Assembly (NCBI GenBank): GCA_016795505.1
Contig: JAEUHH010000076.1
Span: 1-64,000, forward strand
DNA length: 64,000 nt
Source of the DNA: Verrucomicrobiales bacterium
Lineage (GTDB): Bacteria > Verrucomicrobiota > Verrucomicrobiia > Verrucomicrobiales > DEV007
Reading direction: 5' to 3'
Made by a program: the position numbers and the translations under genes. The notes beneath the pieces are model-generated. The model ran no database searches and was not told where the DNA came from. It was given only the letters and a program-made list of their open reading frames with translations. Each line of letters begins with the position of its first letter. Positions within the stretch are counted from its first letter, which is position 1. This document shows, one piece after another, positions 10,321 through 45,655 of this stretch.

Positions 10321-10390
10321 TTGCCTCTCCGATCAGACCCTGTTGCCTCTCCGATCAGACCCTGTTGCCTCTCCGATCAGACCCTGTTTG
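10321..10390 (+). repeat. 22-bp tandem repeat, three perfect units
   Basis: Three perfect 22-bp units occupy 10321-10342, 10343-10364 and 10365-10386. Each contains CTCCGATCAGACCCTG, and a partial fourth (TTTGATCG) follows. ACCCTG occurs at 10337, 10359 and 10381, exactly 22 bp apart. The array ends about 60 bp upstream of the start codon at 10447. It is the cleanest copy of the family. Confidence 0.9.
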
Positions 10391-17970: not shown

Positions 17971-18018
17971 ATCGTCGGTGCAACAGGGTTGGATCGGAGA
18001 TCAAACAGGGTATCATCG
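17962..18018 (-). repeat. 22-bp phased repeat, three units overlapping a start codon
   Basis: On the minus strand three units occur with ACCCTG exactly 22 bp apart (complement CAGGGT at 17962, 17984 and 18006). The distal unit reads CCGATGATACCCTG then TTTGATCT, and the middle one CCGATCCAACCCTG. The proximal unit contains the start codon of the AttH-like gene. Confidence 0.85.
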
Positions 18019-18031
18019 GAAATCCGCCGGA

Positions 18032-27520: not shown

Positions 27521-27568
27521 AAGTCATGGGCTGGCGGGGCGATCGGGAGTATCTTGTCGACCGGTTCC

Positions 27569-27632
27569 GATGAGACCCTGTCCGGTCTCCGATCGAACCC
27601 TGTTTGATCGCCGATCCTACCCTGTTGCCTCG
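27569..27632 (+). repeat. 22-bp phased repeat, three units
   Basis: ACCCTG occurs at 27575, 27597 and 27619, again exactly 22 bp apart. The central unit reads CCGATCGAACCCTG then TTTGATCG. The array ends about 7 bp before the ATG of the histidine kinase gene at 27639, so it occupies the position of the ribosome-binding site. Confidence 0.88.
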
Positions 27633-27638
27633 CCACCG

Positions 27639-35965: not shown

Positions 35966-36067
35966 AGTGAAAAGTAAAAAGTGAAGAGACGAAAGTCACC
36001 CGGCCACTACAACTCTTGAGACCTGAAGACTGACCACTTTTTTACTCTTCACTTTTTACTCTTCACT
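35966..36067. repeat. 23-bp AT-rich inverted repeat between partner genes
   Basis: The arms at 35966-35988 (AGTGAAAAGTAAAAAGTGAA-type, purine-rich) and 36045-36067 (CTCTTCACTTTTTACTCTTC-type) are reverse complements with one mismatch. They are separated by a 56-bp loop containing further partial copies. The whole stretch is strikingly AT-rich compared with its surroundings. It lies between the cytochrome gene stop and the DUF1501 start. It could be a transcript-level hairpin that alters the gene ratio, or an interspersed element remnant. Confidence 0.85.
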
Positions 36068-40015: not shown

Positions 40016-40591
40016 ATGGCAGAACAACTACGATGGGATACTCCGGGCCTGAGTTGGGATTCGGGGCTGACGTGGGATGGCTCTGTCCCAAACTCAAACC
40101 CACCCTCGACTACTATGCATCAGGACCTTCTGAACCTCGACATCAGTCCCGAAGACTGGACCGCCATCGACGCAGCCTTGACGGTGCTGGAAACCAAACT
40201 CTCGTCCAAGCTCATCGATCTCAGCATCGATCAGCGCCAGGCCTTGACCAAGATGGGCAACAAGAGCGAGGCGTTCTGCCGACAGACGCTGATCCTGGCC
40301 CGGCAACAGGTGGCGAAGCTGCCCACCGACTTCGCCACCGACCTCCCGGAGGCCGAGGCCGATCTCGCGGCCCGCGACTCGCTGCTGATCCGTCTGGGCC
40401 GGCTCCAGTCGGTGTGCGAAAAGTCGGACGACTCCGAGATGGCTCTGGGCAGCGACGTGATGGTCTATTGCCTGGAGACCTACGGCGTCCTGAAGGCGAT
40501 CGGGGTCGGCGACGGTCTGGATGAACTGCGGGCCCAGGTGGGCACCCGGTTCAAAAGAGGGCCGCGGAAGAAACAGGCGCCGCAAGCGTGA
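40016..40591 (+). CDS. Unrecognised 191-residue alpha-helical protein
   Basis: The N-terminal 30 residues hold a short Trp-Asp repeat (LRWDTPGLSWDSGLTWDGS). The remainder is predicted helical with two conspicuous blocks, LTKMGNKSEAFCRQTL (about 75-90) and SEMALGSDVMVYCLETYGVL (about 140-160). I recall similar unnamed proteins in PVC and Bacteroidetes-type genomes but cannot name a function. The ATG at 40016 follows CAACCTCCCCCC; an internal ATG at 40115 (MHQDLLNLDIS) is an alternative. It is followed after about 64 bp by the 21-bp hairpin array and converges with the TIR-NACHT gene. Confidence 0.65.
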   Translation: MAEQLRWDTPGLSWDSGLTWDGSVPNSNPPSTTMHQDLLNLDISPEDWTAIDAALTVLETKLSSKLIDLSIDQRQALTKMGNKSEAFCRQTLILARQQVAKLPTDFATDLPEAEADLAARDSLLIRLGRLQSVCEKSDDSEMALGSDVMVYCLETYGVLKAIGVGDGLDELRAQVGTRFKRGPRKKQAPQA

Positions 40592-40654: not shown

Positions 40655-40846
40655 GGGGCTCCGGGGCTCTTTTTTGGGGCTCAGAGCCCCGATTTCGGAG
40701 GTCAAAGCTCCGTTTTCGGAGGTCAAAGCTCCGAATTCGGAGGTCAAAGCTCCGAATTCGGAGGTCAAAGCTCCGTTTTCGGAGGTCAAAGCTCCGTTTT
40801 CGGAGGTCAGAGCTCCGTTTTCGGAGGTCAGAGCTCCGATCAGGGT
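40655..40846. repeat. 21-bp tandem array of small perfect hairpins
   Basis: The core is six units with a 21-bp period starting at 40708, 40729, 40750, 40771, 40792 and 40813. Each is CTCCG-NNNN-CGGAG (loop TTTT or AATT) joined by the spacer GTCAAAG or GTCAGAG. Degenerate units flank it at about 40687 and 40834. Upstream are three GGGGCTC copies (40655, 40663, 40676) and the palindrome GGGGCTC-A-GAGCCCC (40676-40690). It occupies the convergent gap 40592-40867 and is free of stops in several frames only because the period is a multiple of three. Confidence 0.92.
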
Positions 40847-40867: not shown

Positions 40868-43800
40868 TCACCACGGGGGCAGAGGGCCGAAGATCTCGGC
40901 GGGGAGGAGGCGGTTGCGATTGGCCTGGGCGTCCCAGCCACGCCAGCCGAGGAGCCGCCAGGCATTCGAGGAGGCATGGAGGACGCGATTGCCGGGAAAA
41001 TCGACCAGGGCGGTTTCGCCATTACCGATGACCCAGGAGCGAATCATTTCACCGGAATTCGCGTCCCACTCTCTTAAAGTGCCGTCGGCTCCCCCGGAAA
41101 CCAGCCGGGCCCCGTCCGGCGACCAGGCCACGCTCCTGACCCCCCGGCCATGGCCCTCGAGGGTGAGTGCGGCCCGCCCGCTGGCCGCGTCCCAGACCCG
41201 AACGGTGCCGTCACCGCCTCCGGAAACCAACCGAGCCCCGTCCGGCGACCAAGCGACACTGTTGACCCCCTGGCCGTGGCCCTTCAGGGCGAGGAGGACC
41301 CGCCCGCTGGCCGCTTCCCACACACGGACAATGCCGTCCCCCCCCCCGGAAACCAATTGGGCTCCGTCTGGCGACCAACCTACGCTCCCGACCCACCCGC
41401 CATGGCCGTCCAAGGCGAGGAGAGCCAATCCACTGGCCGCGTCCCACACCCGAACTTTACCGTCTTCGCCACCAGAAACCAGCCGGGCTCCATCCGGCGA
41501 CCATGCCACGCTTAAGATCCTATCTTCGTGGGCTTCGAACGTAAGAAGGGCTTGCCCGCTAGCCGCGTCCCACACTCGGACCATGCCATCATCGCCCCCA
41601 TAAACTAGGCGAGCCCCGTCGGGTGACCAGCTAACGCTCCAGACCCACCCGCAACGGCCCTCCAAAGCGAGGAGCGCCCGCCCGCTGCCCGCGTCCCAGG
41701 ACCGCACAATCCCATCATCACCCCCGGAAACCAGTTGGGCTCCGTCCGGCGACCAAGACACACTGTTGATCCCCTTGCGATGGCCCTCAATGGCTAAAGG
41801 GGCCCGACCTCTGGCCGCGTCCCAAACCCGAACCGTGCCGTCTTCGCCCCCGGAAACCAGCTGGGTCCCGTCCGGCGACAAGCCTAAACTGTTGACCCAC
41901 TGCCGATGCCCCTCAATGGCAAAAAGAGGCCGACCGCTCGCCGCATCCCACACCCGGACCGTGGCATCATCGCCCCCAGAAACCAGCCGGGCCCCGTCCG
42001 GCGACCAACTTAAACTGTTGATCCACGTCCAATGCCCCTCAATAGCATGAAGGGTCCGCCCGCTTGCCGCGTCCCATACCCGGATAGTGGCGTCATATCC
42101 CCCGGAAACTAGCCTAGACCCATCGGGCGACCATGCCACGCTATTGACCCACCCGGCGCACTTATTGAAGACTAAAAGGGCCCGCCCGCTGGCCGTATCC
42201 CACACCCGGACGGTGCCGTCATTGTCCCCTGAAGCCAACTGGGTCCCATCCGGCGACCACGCTACGCTACCGACCCATTGCCCATGGCCTTCCAGGGCGA
42301 GGAGGGCGCGCCCGCTGGCCGCTTCCCACACTCGGACGGTGCCATCATCGCCCCCAGAAACTAGCCGGGCCCCGTCTGGCGACCAGGCCACGCTCCCGAC
42401 CCACTTGGCATGCCCCTCGAAGTCGATGATGGCCCGCCCACTGGCCGCATCCCACACTCGGACGGCTCCATCATATCCCCCGGAAACCAGCCTAGCCCCG
42501 TCGGGCGACCACGCCACGCTGTTGACACCATTTAGATGCCCATCCAGAGCGAAGAGGGCCCGCCCGGCAGCCACGTCCCACACTCGGACGGTGCCGTCCT
42601 GACTCCCGGAAACCAGCAGAGTCCCGTCCGGCGACCAAGCCACGCTGCAGACCGTATTGCCGCGCTGCTCCAGGGCGAGGAGAGCCCGCCCGCTGGCCGC
42701 GTCCCAGACCCGGACGCTGCCGTCGGTTCCCCCGGAAACCAGCCGTGTGCCGTCCGGCGACCAGGCCACGCTGTTGGCGTTGCCGGAATGCCCCTGGCGC
42801 AGGCTCAATTGCCATTCATCGGAAATCACCTGAACACTGGCAGCCTCGTGGCTCCAATCGGCGGGGAGCGCGGCCCCTGCCAGATCCGAGGCGATCACGT
42901 CGCAATCATGCCAAACGGCGGTCGTGGCCCGCAGGCCCCGCAAATCGCAGCCCCGCCAGGTGCCGCCGCAGAGATCGGCCCCCTCGAAGTCCGCTCCGAC
43001 CAGATCGACGCCATGTAGCTCAGCCAACCGGGCGGAGAGACCAGTGGCGTGGGCTCCGGTTAGGAGGGCGCAGTGAATATCGGCGTGATCGAGCCGGCTC
43101 CCAGATAGATCGGCGTGGCGCAGGTCGAAGCGTGGCCCCTCCGGCGTGCCGATCACCCAGCCCTCCAGATCGAGGTTCTGGAGGGCGGCCCGGACCGGAG
43201 AGGGCTGAGGCCACCCGGCACAGCGGGCGACGATCCAAGCGCGAAAGGCATTCCGCCGGGTGTTCGCCGGCAGGGAGCCATCGTCCAGCCAGCGGGTCCA
43301 CTGTGCCACGGCAGCGGCGGGGTCGATCTTTTCCCCTTCGGCCAGCAATTGACCGGCGAAATCGAGGGTTTCGTCCGAGGGCAGGGGCAGATCCCAATCG
43401 GCGGGGCGGTCCTCCTCCCAGGCGCGCACGAGATGGAGGGCGAGGAAGTACTCGTAGAGGGAGGTGTGAGCGAAGCGGAAACCGTCCTTTTCCCCATCGG
43501 GCCGCAGGCAGAAGGTGGCGGCGCGAAAGTCCTGATTGAGGACTTCGGCGGGTTTGTCCTGATAGCGGTCGCGGATCTCGGGGTGGGCGGCGAGGAAGCT
43601 GTCGAGCCATTTGGACACCTTGGCCCAGGGAAGGGTCTTCTGATTGATCCGGCAGAGGTGGGCAGCGAGGGCCTCCATCATCTGGAGTTTGTGCTCGGGG
43701 GTGAACTGGTGCTTGTACTCATCGCGCCGCAGCCATTTCTCGACGAAGAGGCCGTAGAGGGTGACGCCGAGAACGGTGCGGCCCGCGGCTTTCATCTGCT

Positions 43801-45655
43801 CCAGGGCATTGAGCTCGGGCGCGATCAACGACAGGAGGAAGGGCCGGGTGGAGAGGTCGGTCAGATTGTGAACGGACCGGATGACGCCGACAGCCTCCTC
43901 GACCCGTTCCTCCCCGAGCATCTTGCCGAGGTAGGCGCGGACCTGGGCATCATTGAAGGGCAGGATGACGCAGGCGGTGTAGTCCTGCTGGCGGATGCCC
44001 TCGCGGTCCTCGCCGGTGAAGGCGGAGCTGAGGGCGGTGATGGTGGGAAAGTAATGGGAGCGGCAGGAGATGATGAGCCTGCCGGGCCGGGTGCCAGGCT
44101 TGGGCTTTTGCGAGAGGGGCGGCAGCACGCTCCAGAGTTGGCGGATGAAGGCATCGCGCCGCCCCTGTGGCAGGGGGATGATGCGCTCGTCGAGGCCATC
44201 GAAGATGATGAGGGCGCCGCGCTCGCGGACAGCCCGGATGATCATCTCGGGTGTGATGGCGCGACCGGCGTCGCCTTTCCAATGGCGGGAGATGACGACG
44301 CGGAGGATATCTTCGAGGACGGGATCGTTCTCAAAGTAGTAGTCCTTCAGATCGATGAAAATGACGGCGGGAACAGTGGCGTCCTGTTCCCGGCGGCGTT
44401 CCAGTTCCTCCGCCAACAACATGAGAGTGGTGGTCTTGCCGATGCCAGTCTCACCGAGGACGGCGCAGAAGGGAGTGCCCTCGGGCTTGATGGCCCAGTC
44501 GGCGAGGAAATCGACGGCTTTGGTGCGGTTCTGCTCCAACTGGGAGGCGTCTTTTTCCCAGTTTTGAAGGCTGACGTTGGCCCCGTGGGGATCGACCGGG
44601 CACTCGGGGGTGACGTTGTTGAGAACGATATGGTGGCCCAAATCGGCGGTGGCGGCGTGGGCCACCTCGGCATCATCGAGAGGGAATGGCTCTGGGGTGC
44701 GGGACGGGCGGAGAGGCTTTGCCTTCGGCGCAGTGGGTTTGCGGGAGGATTTGATTTTTTCGAGGATCTTGCCGGCGAGATCCTGAGCGAATTCGTCGGC
44801 AATGTGCCCGGTGCATTGAGAGTAGAAACGGGGCTCACCGCTGTCGCGCTGGAGGCGGTAGATCTGTGTGACCTCAAGGCCTTTCATATCGATGCGATCG
44901 AAGACCAGCGGGGTGAGACCCACGGGGATGACGGGTTTTGTTCCCGTGACGAAGGGTGGCAGTTCCTTGCCGGTGATGTAGCGACTGAGGAGGAAATCCC
45001 GGGACACGAAGAGCAACCCGAAATCGCAACTTTTAAGGGCGGTCTGAATGCGCTCGTCCCAATCGGCGCCGACCTCGATCTTTTTGTCGGACCAGATCTC
45101 GAAGCGGTAGTCCTTAATAAGCGCCAGCTCCTTTTCGAGAGAATCCTGAAGCCGGGTGACCCGCTCGCGGTCCGCATGGGCATAGGACACGAAGAAGCGG
45201 ATGAGGGGTTTGATTTTCTCCGGATGCTCCTGCTCCTCCTGATTGAGGATGGCGGCGGCGGGAGGCACGAGATCCTGGCCTTCGATGGTGCTGACGGCCT
45301 CGCGGGTGAACTGCGCAAGATTGGCGACATCGGGCGAGGGACCTTCGATCCAGGTCTTCCGGATTTCGGGATCGGCTTTCTTTTGGGTATCGACCTTGAT
45401 GGCGAGTTCCAGGTTCGCCTCACGGGCGGCTTCATTGGCTCGAACGACGAAAGTCTGATACGCAGCGAGGGCGGCGACGCGGTCTTTGCCCGGTGCGATC
45501 ACTTGGAGGGCCGAGGCAAGGGAGGCCTCGCCGGTTTCGAACAGGGGCAACAGAGCCGACAGGCGCTCGGCATTGACGCGACCCAAGTGGTCGAGCCACG
45601 TCTGGGTGGAGGGGCCGATCTGCGCGGCGGAAAGGGGCTGGAGGTCAGCGGGCAT
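40868..45655 (-). CDS. TIR-NACHT NTPase with pentapeptide and 14 WD40 repeats, candidate defence sensor
   Basis: The protein is 1595 residues. An unassigned N-terminal region (1-150) is followed by a TIR domain (about 151-280: IRFFVSYAHADRERV, a D-rich SDKKIEVGADWDERIQTAL segment, and the candidate catalytic Glu231 in ITGKELPPF). A NACHT/STAND NTPase comes next (Walker A GETGIGKTT at 401-409; Walker B ALIIFDGLDERI; the later FRFAHTSLYEYFLALHL at about 726-742). Pentapeptide-like repeats follow (about 843-925: DLRHADLSGSRLDHADI). Fourteen WD40 repeats of 42 residues fill about 950-1540, each with SVAWSPDGxxLVSGGxDGTVRVWD. TIR effectors degrade NAD+ in related anti-phage STAND systems; sensing by WD40 and NACHT-driven oligomerisation is inferred. 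The start at 45655 follows a C/T-rich leader. A micropeptide gene lies 6 bp upstream. Confidence 0.88.
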   Translation of the reverse strand: MPADLQPLSAAQIGPSTQTWLDHLGRVNAERLSALLPLFETGEASLASALQVIAPGKDRVAALAAYQTFVVRANEAAREANLELAIKVDTQKKADPEIRKTWIEGPSPDVANLAQFTREAVSTIEGQDLVPPAAAILNQEEQEHPEKIKPLIRFFVSYAHADRERVTRLQDSLEKELALIKDYRFEIWSDKKIEVGADWDERIQTALKSCDFGLLFVSRDFLLSRYITGKELPPFVTGTKPVIPVGLTPLVFDRIDMKGLEVTQIYRLQRDSGEPRFYSQCTGHIADEFAQDLAGKILEKIKSSRKPTAPKAKPLRPSRTPEPFPLDDAEVAHAATADLGHHIVLNNVTPECPVDPHGANVSLQNWEKDASQLEQNRTKAVDFLADWAIKPEGTPFCAVLGETGIGKTTTLMLLAEELERRREQDATVPAVIFIDLKDYYFENDPVLEDILRVVISRHWKGDAGRAITPEMIIRAVRERGALIIFDGLDERIIPLPQGRRDAFIRQLWSVLPPLSQKPKPGTRPGRLIISCRSHYFPTITALSSAFTGEDREGIRQQDYTACVILPFNDAQVRAYLGKMLGEERVEEAVGVIRSVHNLTDLSTRPFLLSLIAPELNALEQMKAAGRTVLGVTLYGLFVEKWLRRDEYKHQFTPEHKLQMMEALAAHLCRINQKTLPWAKVSKWLDSFLAAHPEIRDRYQDKPAEVLNQDFRAATFCLRPDGEKDGFRFAHTSLYEYFLALHLVRAWEEDRPADWDLPLPSDETLDFAGQLLAEGEKIDPAAAVAQWTRWLDDGSLPANTRRNAFRAWIVARCAGWPQPSPVRAALQNLDLEGWVIGTPEGPRFDLRHADLSGSRLDHADIHCALLTGAHATGLSARLAELHGVDLVGADFEGADLCGGTWRGCDLRGLRATTAVWHDCDVIASDLAGAALPADWSHEAASVQVISDEWQLSLRQGHSGNANSVAWSPDGTRLVSGGTDGSVRVWDAASGRALLALEQRGNTVCSVAWSPDGTLLVSGSQDGTVRVWDVAAGRALFALDGHLNGVNSVAWSPDGARLVSGGYDGAVRVWDAASGRAIIDFEGHAKWVGSVAWSPDGARLVSGGDDGTVRVWEAASGRALLALEGHGQWVGSVAWSPDGTQLASGDNDGTVRVWDTASGRALLVFNKCAGWVNSVAWSPDGSRLVSGGYDATIRVWDAASGRTLHAIEGHWTWINSLSWSPDGARLVSGGDDATVRVWDAASGRPLFAIEGHRQWVNSLGLSPDGTQLVSGGEDGTVRVWDAARGRAPLAIEGHRKGINSVSWSPDGAQLVSGGDDGIVRSWDAGSGRALLALEGRCGWVWSVSWSPDGARLVYGGDDGMVRVWDAASGQALLTFEAHEDRILSVAWSPDGARLVSGGEDGKVRVWDAASGLALLALDGHGGWVGSVGWSPDGAQLVSGGGDGIVRVWEAASGRVLLALKGHGQGVNSVAWSPDGARLVSGGGDGTVRVWDAASGRAALTLEGHGRGVRSVAWSPDGARLVSGGADGTLREWDANSGEMIRSWVIGNGETALVDFPGNRVLHASSNAWRLLGWRGWDAQANRNRLLPAEIFGPLPPW
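41040..42808 (-). repeat. 126-bp tandem coding repeat (14 near-identical WD40 units)
   Basis: Fourteen head-to-tail units of 126 bp encode the WD40 region. Adjacent and distant units share long runs of identical bases, including at silent positions. Such DNA-level similarity favours recombinational change in repeat number, as in fungal HET-E/NACHT-WD40 genes. The assembly of this region should be confirmed with long reads. Confidence 0.85.

Follow-up and report, generated by a model that had tools for sequence, protein, structure and literature searches.

Iterons and centromere-like arrays of the parS/parC type are direct repeats of about 20 bp, set in helical phase beside the gene for a small protein. 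Type III toxin–antitoxin systems of the ToxIN kind have tandem structured repeats by the gene for a protein of ~160–190 aa, and REP/BIME elements with RAYT are extragenic palindromes tied to a gene family. REPs are dispersed elements of 20–40 bp whose sequence is conserved within a family and whose partner is an HUH tyrosine transposase (e.g. PMC3733652). The locus described here shares part of its layout with each of these. It lies in a window (the whole stretch of verrucomicrobial DNA that was analysed, 64,000 nucleotides) and consists of a tandem array of palindromes next to the gene for a 191-aa protein. The association of this gene with an array, and the palindromic architecture of the array, recur in relatives from two phyla, among Verrucomicrobia and among beta- and gammaproteobacteria.

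The array in the window and in its genome

The window array contains six perfect CTCCG-N4-CGGAG palindromes that start at 40708, 40729, 40750, 40771, 40792, and 40813, a step of exactly 21 bp, with 7-nt spacers reading GTCAAAG or GTCAGAG. An imperfect seventh unit, CCCCG-ATTT-CGGAG, stands ahead of the six and a half unit behind them; TRF treats the tract as one repeat of period 21 with a 94% match and 0 indels (Table 1). The 64-kb window holds 7 matches to CTCCG-NNNN-CGGAG against 0.25 expected, a number reached by no shuffle. Compared with shuffles, positions 40655–40846 fold with z-scores of −10.3 (DNA) and −8.8 (RNA). A preliminary description, made from the letters of the window, had the perfect units, the period, the spacers, and the convergent flanking genes right. 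The extent that it gave, 40655–40846, covers the array core and at its start takes in a separate GGGGCTC/GAGCCCC stem region (bases 40655–40680) outside the array, and the alternation of TTTT and AATT loops that it claimed is not strict, the order being TTTT, AATT, AATT, TTTT, TTTT, TTTT.

Table 1. Features of the array locus, in window positions
Feature	Position	Strand	Basis or remark
191-aa gene, array-associated helical family, motif KMGxKSEAF	40016..40591	+	relatives; AlphaFold2
N-terminal leader LRWDTPG-LSWDSG-LTWDG of the 191-aa gene	40016..40114	+	sequence comparison
GGGGCTC/GAGCCCC stem region and T6 tract, between gene and array	40655..40691		weak terminator-like match only
Non-coding array, 7.5 x 21-bp units (TCAAAGCTCCGTTTTCGGAGG)	40681..40838		TRF, sequence, no codon-position bias in unit mismatches
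Six perfect CTCCG-N4-CGGAG palindromes	40708..40826		pattern count vs expectation
TIR-NACHT-pentapeptide-like-WD40 gene, convergent neighbour	40868..45655	-	not judged part of the unit

Three other contigs of the 6.5-Mb genome, C30, C45, and C50, also carry arrays with the pattern GCTCCGNNNNCGGAG; elsewhere, apart from a few arrays, the palindrome pattern is no commoner than background and has other loops. The array on C30 has 10 units with a different spacer (CGGAGCAAAAAGCTCCGACCT) and begins ~50 bp behind a homologue of the window's 191-aa gene. On C50, 8.4 units lie by a decayed copy of that gene, interrupted by an in-frame stop, with the relative order unchanged. C45 carries 16 units and no detectable copy of the gene. 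Its array is directly behind the apparent 3' end of a WD40 gene resembling the window array's neighbour, and the locus probably arose by duplication of part of an arrangement like the window's. A fourth full copy of the gene, on C47, has 22-bp, 14-bp, and 7-bp repeats behind it in place of a 21-bp array.

Other short repeats were observed as well. Heptamer (7/14-bp) tandem repeats, for example 19 copies of GGATCTT, are found at L018 2150–2379, L019 368–438, and window positions 36035–36067, and one stands by the C47 gene copy that has no 21-bp array. A 22-bp palindromic family (core CGATCRRACCCTSTT), often present as 2–3 tandem units, has 257 exact core matches genome-wide, with 0 for the reversed-pattern control. 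It occurs in the window at 10321–10388, 17982–18024, and 27561–27634, and is REP-like and distinct from the 21-bp array.

The gene family and its arrays

The 191-aa protein has no match above chance in Pfam, NCBIfam, or PADLOC, and none among PDB sequences. AlphaFold2 predicts an all-helical monomer with a 58-residue helix (mean pLDDT 85, pTM 0.64). No DNA-binding domain is recognisable in this predicted structure, and a search with it of PDB and BFVD returned nothing with E below 1. In a scan of 84,980 species genomes, 225 relatives were matched. The protein is homologous over its full domain to relatives in two phyla at 28–60% identity, with invariant residues K79, G81, S84, A86, F87, D116, L123, D139, Y156, and R178 and an almost invariant core, KMGDKSEAFCRQ. 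The best 80 of the 225 come from Verrucomicrobia, Ralstonia and other Burkholderiales, Zoogloea, Accumulibacter, Pseudoxanthomonas, Rhodanobacter, Lysobacter, and Luteimonas, and among these 80 the family is often multicopy, with two to four divergent copies per genome. Its distribution is patchy (7 of 384 verrucomicrobial genomes sampled). The N-terminal leader is common to other verrucomicrobial genes with a different body and is absent in proteobacterial members. A phage or plasmid origin was rejected, as a search of 50,697 phage records did not find the family, 2.9 million viral contigs contained no confirmed relative, and the only match among plasmids was a distant copy without an array, on a Thiodictyon plasmid.

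Periodicity was scored as an identity of at least 0.52 over 105 bp at a lag of 21, 42, or 63 bp, within flanks of up to 700 bp. It is present beside the gene in 60 of the best 80 of 225 relatives and in 4 of 138 stretches 1.2–2.6 kb away (p 4e-31), while control lags of 18, 19, 20, 22, 23, 24, and 27 bp and their multiples are positive in 0–5 of the 80. When non-coding gaps serve as the control (at least 200 bp long and farther than 800 bp from the gene), the counts are 61 of 80 relatives and 1 of 74 gaps, and the sole positive gap, at L037, is itself a palindromic 21-bp array of like type, 1.7 kb from its gene. About a quarter of the 80 relatives are without an array; several of these, not all, are on contigs that end beside the gene.

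The check suggested in the preliminary description, whether an array always follows a 191-aa homologue, thus comes out in favour of accompaniment (60–61 of 80 relatives against 1 of 74 distant non-coding gaps) and only in part in favour of order. The array is downstream of the gene in Verrucomicrobia, Aquabacterium, Zoogloea, Accumulibacter, and Luteimonas, and upstream in Ralstonia, Rhodanobacter, Pseudoxanthomonas, and Lysobacter. Upstream arrays make up about half of the loci and usually lie 30–330 bp before the gene start. TRF periods in the vicinity of the family or of a related one are within 0.5 bp of a multiple of 10.5 in 36 of 44 cases. The one clear exception to the 21-bp rule beside a family member is at L104 2247–2532, where 8 copies of a 35-bp unit carry GGAATTC inverted repeats.

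Several gene copies sit among accessory genes, such as HNH and TIR-NACHT-WD40 genes in the window, an HsdR-like restriction subunit in Rhodanobacter, and an FRG-domain gene in Ralstonia; no neighbour conserved across genera was found. The large TIR-NACHT-pentapeptide-like-WD40 gene is a candidate defence gene. It looks incidental to the array, and a role for it is not supported, since other genomes have arrays and the gene family without such a neighbour and neighbours vary. Near the Pseudoxanthomonas and Lysobacter copies lies sRNA-Xcc1, an RNA that in Xanthomonas is known to occur together with symE in integron cassettes (PMC12444791). Several divergent Ralstonia paralogues are accompanied, at different sites, by a ~540-bp cassette that travels with array and gene and contains a C4 antisense RNA and, on the other strand, an orphan ORF of 122 aa. 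In Ralstonia-type loci, C4 antisense RNAs and the conserved 122-aa orphan ORF are placed upstream of the array and on the opposite strand (L036 2255–2343, L039 3345–3434, L057 3404–3492, L082 3322–3410, and L072 2541–3584), and L072 has three C4 RNAs and an isrK match. A conserved partner was rejected, C4/isrK being found in Ralstonia only and no partner recurring across genera, and so was tRNA targeting, as 20 loci contained no tRNA genes.

A second family combines a helical part with FnIII, often behind an xxWDSGxxWDG leader common to the 191-aa protein. Copies lie at L019 2430–3152, L106 910–1641, and L109 42–788 and on contigs C71, C108, C76, and C15 of the window's own genome, and the family carries palindromic arrays of 21, 22, 44, or 10–11 bp. 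Collagen-like genes (start MxxDPxLPxxxSPL) follow loci at L009 1067–1654, L027 5025–5777, L140, and L141, and two further collagen-like copies have 21-bp arrays of their own, one built from GGAGGCGCGCCTCC and one from a CCATGG-centred unit. Palindromic 21/22-bp arrays of FnIII and collagen-like genes are found in the window's genome and in a few relatives, and the array class may be wider than the 191-aa family alone. Because of these arrays, and of the C45 array that has no family gene, the partner of an array need not be the 191-aa protein.

Conserved geometry and a possible role

The preliminary description had proposed the literal 21-mer as a search term, yet what the arrays conserve is the period and the palindromy, not the 21-mer. 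When the proteins are less than ~80% identical, their arrays have no more 7-mers in common than unrelated arrays have, whereas the arrays of orthologues have more. Some cores, among them GAGC-AAAAA-GCTC and GAGCTC-N-GAGCTC, turn up repeatedly in different taxa, and GCAAAAAGC is present in 12 of 52 arrays against 0.8 expected. A common sequence code was rejected, as the shared cores are weak and array likeness tracks the protein only above ~80% identity.

Palindromy was compared with a column-permutation null, in which the 21 columns are permuted identically in all units so that repetition is kept. In 34 of 41 arrays, folding surpasses that of at least 95% of the array's own permuted versions, and the mean z-scores for the two strands are −3.46 and −3.47. 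Dinucleotide shuffles give means of −4.3 and −4.45, with 10 arrays better forward and 10 better in reverse. Since both strands fold equally well against the nulls, the symmetry of the arrays has no preferred strand. Pairing of units about their best axis is above the null; covariation among units shrinks to a weak signal against a null in which the axis is optimised anew (91.9 excess pairs vs 73.1 ± 10.9, ~1.7 sd), and a covariation Stouffer value of 6.9 was set aside because the axis had been picked on the same data.

The array is perhaps, with slightly less than even confidence, a DNA-level platform of helically phased palindromes for a dimeric or oligomeric protein, likeliest the product of the neighbouring gene. 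Because 21.0 bp corresponds to two turns of B-DNA, the dyads all face the same side of the helix, as would suit protein dimers bound next to one another. The binder, a dimer or oligomer that the gene beside the array most likely encodes, would occupy the dyads side by side, and the occupied dyads would form a multivalent nucleoprotein patch beside the gene. Such a patch might further, and more speculatively, exert local control over the unit or the accessory region as autoregulation, maintenance, or an immunity-like switch, a purpose suggested by the multicopy and patchy distribution in accessory regions. Helical phase, strand symmetry, an extragenic position on either side of the gene, and drift of the letters with the geometry kept all favour a platform of double-stranded DNA. 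The preliminary description had left the choice between protein binding and an RNA role; the DNA protein-binding role is favoured over the RNA role because the two strands fold alike and terminators often keep the array out of the gene's transcript.

A broader proposal is possible rather than probable. The loci may be chromosomal units, spread horizontally, whose new all-helical protein assembles on palindrome arrays recognised by geometry, not by conserved sequence. The geometry to be read would be dyads every two helical turns, often with A/T5 tracts between GC arms. Each paralogue would have its own fast-evolving array, and the verrucomicrobial FnIII and collagen-like module genes would share the design.

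It is somewhat unlikely that the array works as RNA, that is, as a transcribed chain of 21-nt hairpins forming a stable 3' end, a terminator cluster, a protein-binding RNA, or an RNA antitoxin-like element. A single strand does fold very well, and many downstream-type arrays, including that of the window, start within ~60 bases of the stop without a clear terminator. The equal folding of the two strands against their own nulls, the lack of a preferred orientation relative to the gene, and the roughly half of arrays that stand before the gene start all speak against such a role, and no Rfam model matches over the arrays, so that a known structured RNA was rejected. Terminators point the same way in a fair part of the loci. 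Intrinsic terminators lie behind the gene at 19 of 55 loci compared with 5 of 410 random stretches. A canonical one is directly behind the gene at 13 of 26 upstream-type loci, and one within 130 bases of the stop is found at 6 of 29 downstream-type loci, mostly before the array (5–6 loci), which places these arrays outside the gene's transcript. At 36 of 55 loci, the window included, there is no clear terminator between gene and array. The window search found 2 terminator-like sites vs 1.0 expected and no strong terminator between the 191-aa gene and the array, which leaves room for an RNA role at that locus.

An origin as a by-product or selfish repeat is unlikely. In that case slippage, the extrusion of palindromes, or a process tied to mobile elements would have built the arrays where they are tolerated, with no function for the protein. 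Such an origin would account for the fast turnover of sequence and for arrays that persist by the decayed gene on C50 or without a gene on C45, in a genome rich in other short palindromic repeats such as the 22-bp family. However, exact 21-bp spacing with palindromy across two phyla is not expected of neutral repeats, nor should these stay confined to the flanks of one gene family, and repetition alone does not produce the palindromes, as the column-permutation null indicates. The multicopy, patchy occurrence of the unit and the Ralstonia cassette (C4 RNA, one isrK match, and the 122-aa ORF), which travels into different flanks, would suit palindromes that are ends or targets for moving the gene unit as a cassette. 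This is improbable given an array on one side of the gene only, no conserved recombinase or transposase alongside, no terminal repeats or target duplications seen, and a family missing from phage, viral, and plasmid collections apart from the distant array-less plasmid match. That the array encodes a heptad-repeat protein, 21 bp being 7 codons, is very improbable. Frames read LTSENGA in the window and EARSLKR in L096, but the peptides read from different loci are unrelated, many arrays have stops in all six frames, and unit mismatches show no overall codon-position bias, although single arrays such as L090 and C45 deviate. The arrays are therefore non-coding, as the preliminary description had suggested for that of the window.

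Comparison with described systems

The DNA platform favoured above is most readily set beside iterons and parS/parC-type arrays, with which the locus has in common ~20-bp helically phased direct repeats by a small-protein gene. It differs from them in being chromosomal, in occurring as several divergent copies, in a unit sequence that is not conserved, and in a partner fold without a match; Pfam, NCBIfam, and fold searches gave no Rep, ParA, or ParB homology for the 191-aa protein. In contrast to REP/BIME and RAYT, the palindromes form locus-specific head-to-tail arrays, not dispersed single elements, and neither the 191-aa protein nor its immediate neighbours include an HUH tyrosine transposase. 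CRISPR arrays have unique spacers of 25–40 bp, whereas the spacers here are 7-nt and repeated, with no cas gene among the neighbours examined. ToxIN-like systems encode a beta-barrel nuclease whose gene is preceded, within a single transcript, by the repeats of the antitoxin RNA; here the array lies on either side of the gene and is strand-symmetric, and the protein is predicted to be all-helical, with no family match to a ToxN/AbiQ/CptN-like fold. C4 antisense RNA and isrK (RF01695, RF01394) lie ~0.5–0.8 kb upstream of the gene in the Ralstonia copies examined, and are absent from other genera and from the window; they accompany the Ralstonia version as a passenger and are distinct from the array.

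An unannotated family is thus tied across two phyla to a two-turn DNA spacing while the letters change between loci. If the protein does read geometry, this would be a new bacterial way of marking DNA, and the pairing of gene and array makes it directly testable in culturable relatives from Ralstonia, Aquabacterium, and Pseudoxanthomonas. For annotators, gene plus array is a signature for many ‘hypothetical proteins’. Open-access literature searched for the repeat length, the palindromes, and the protein motifs gave no description of a gene–array unit. The two-part unit is apparently new, though it may prove to act much as some known type of DNA-binding array does.
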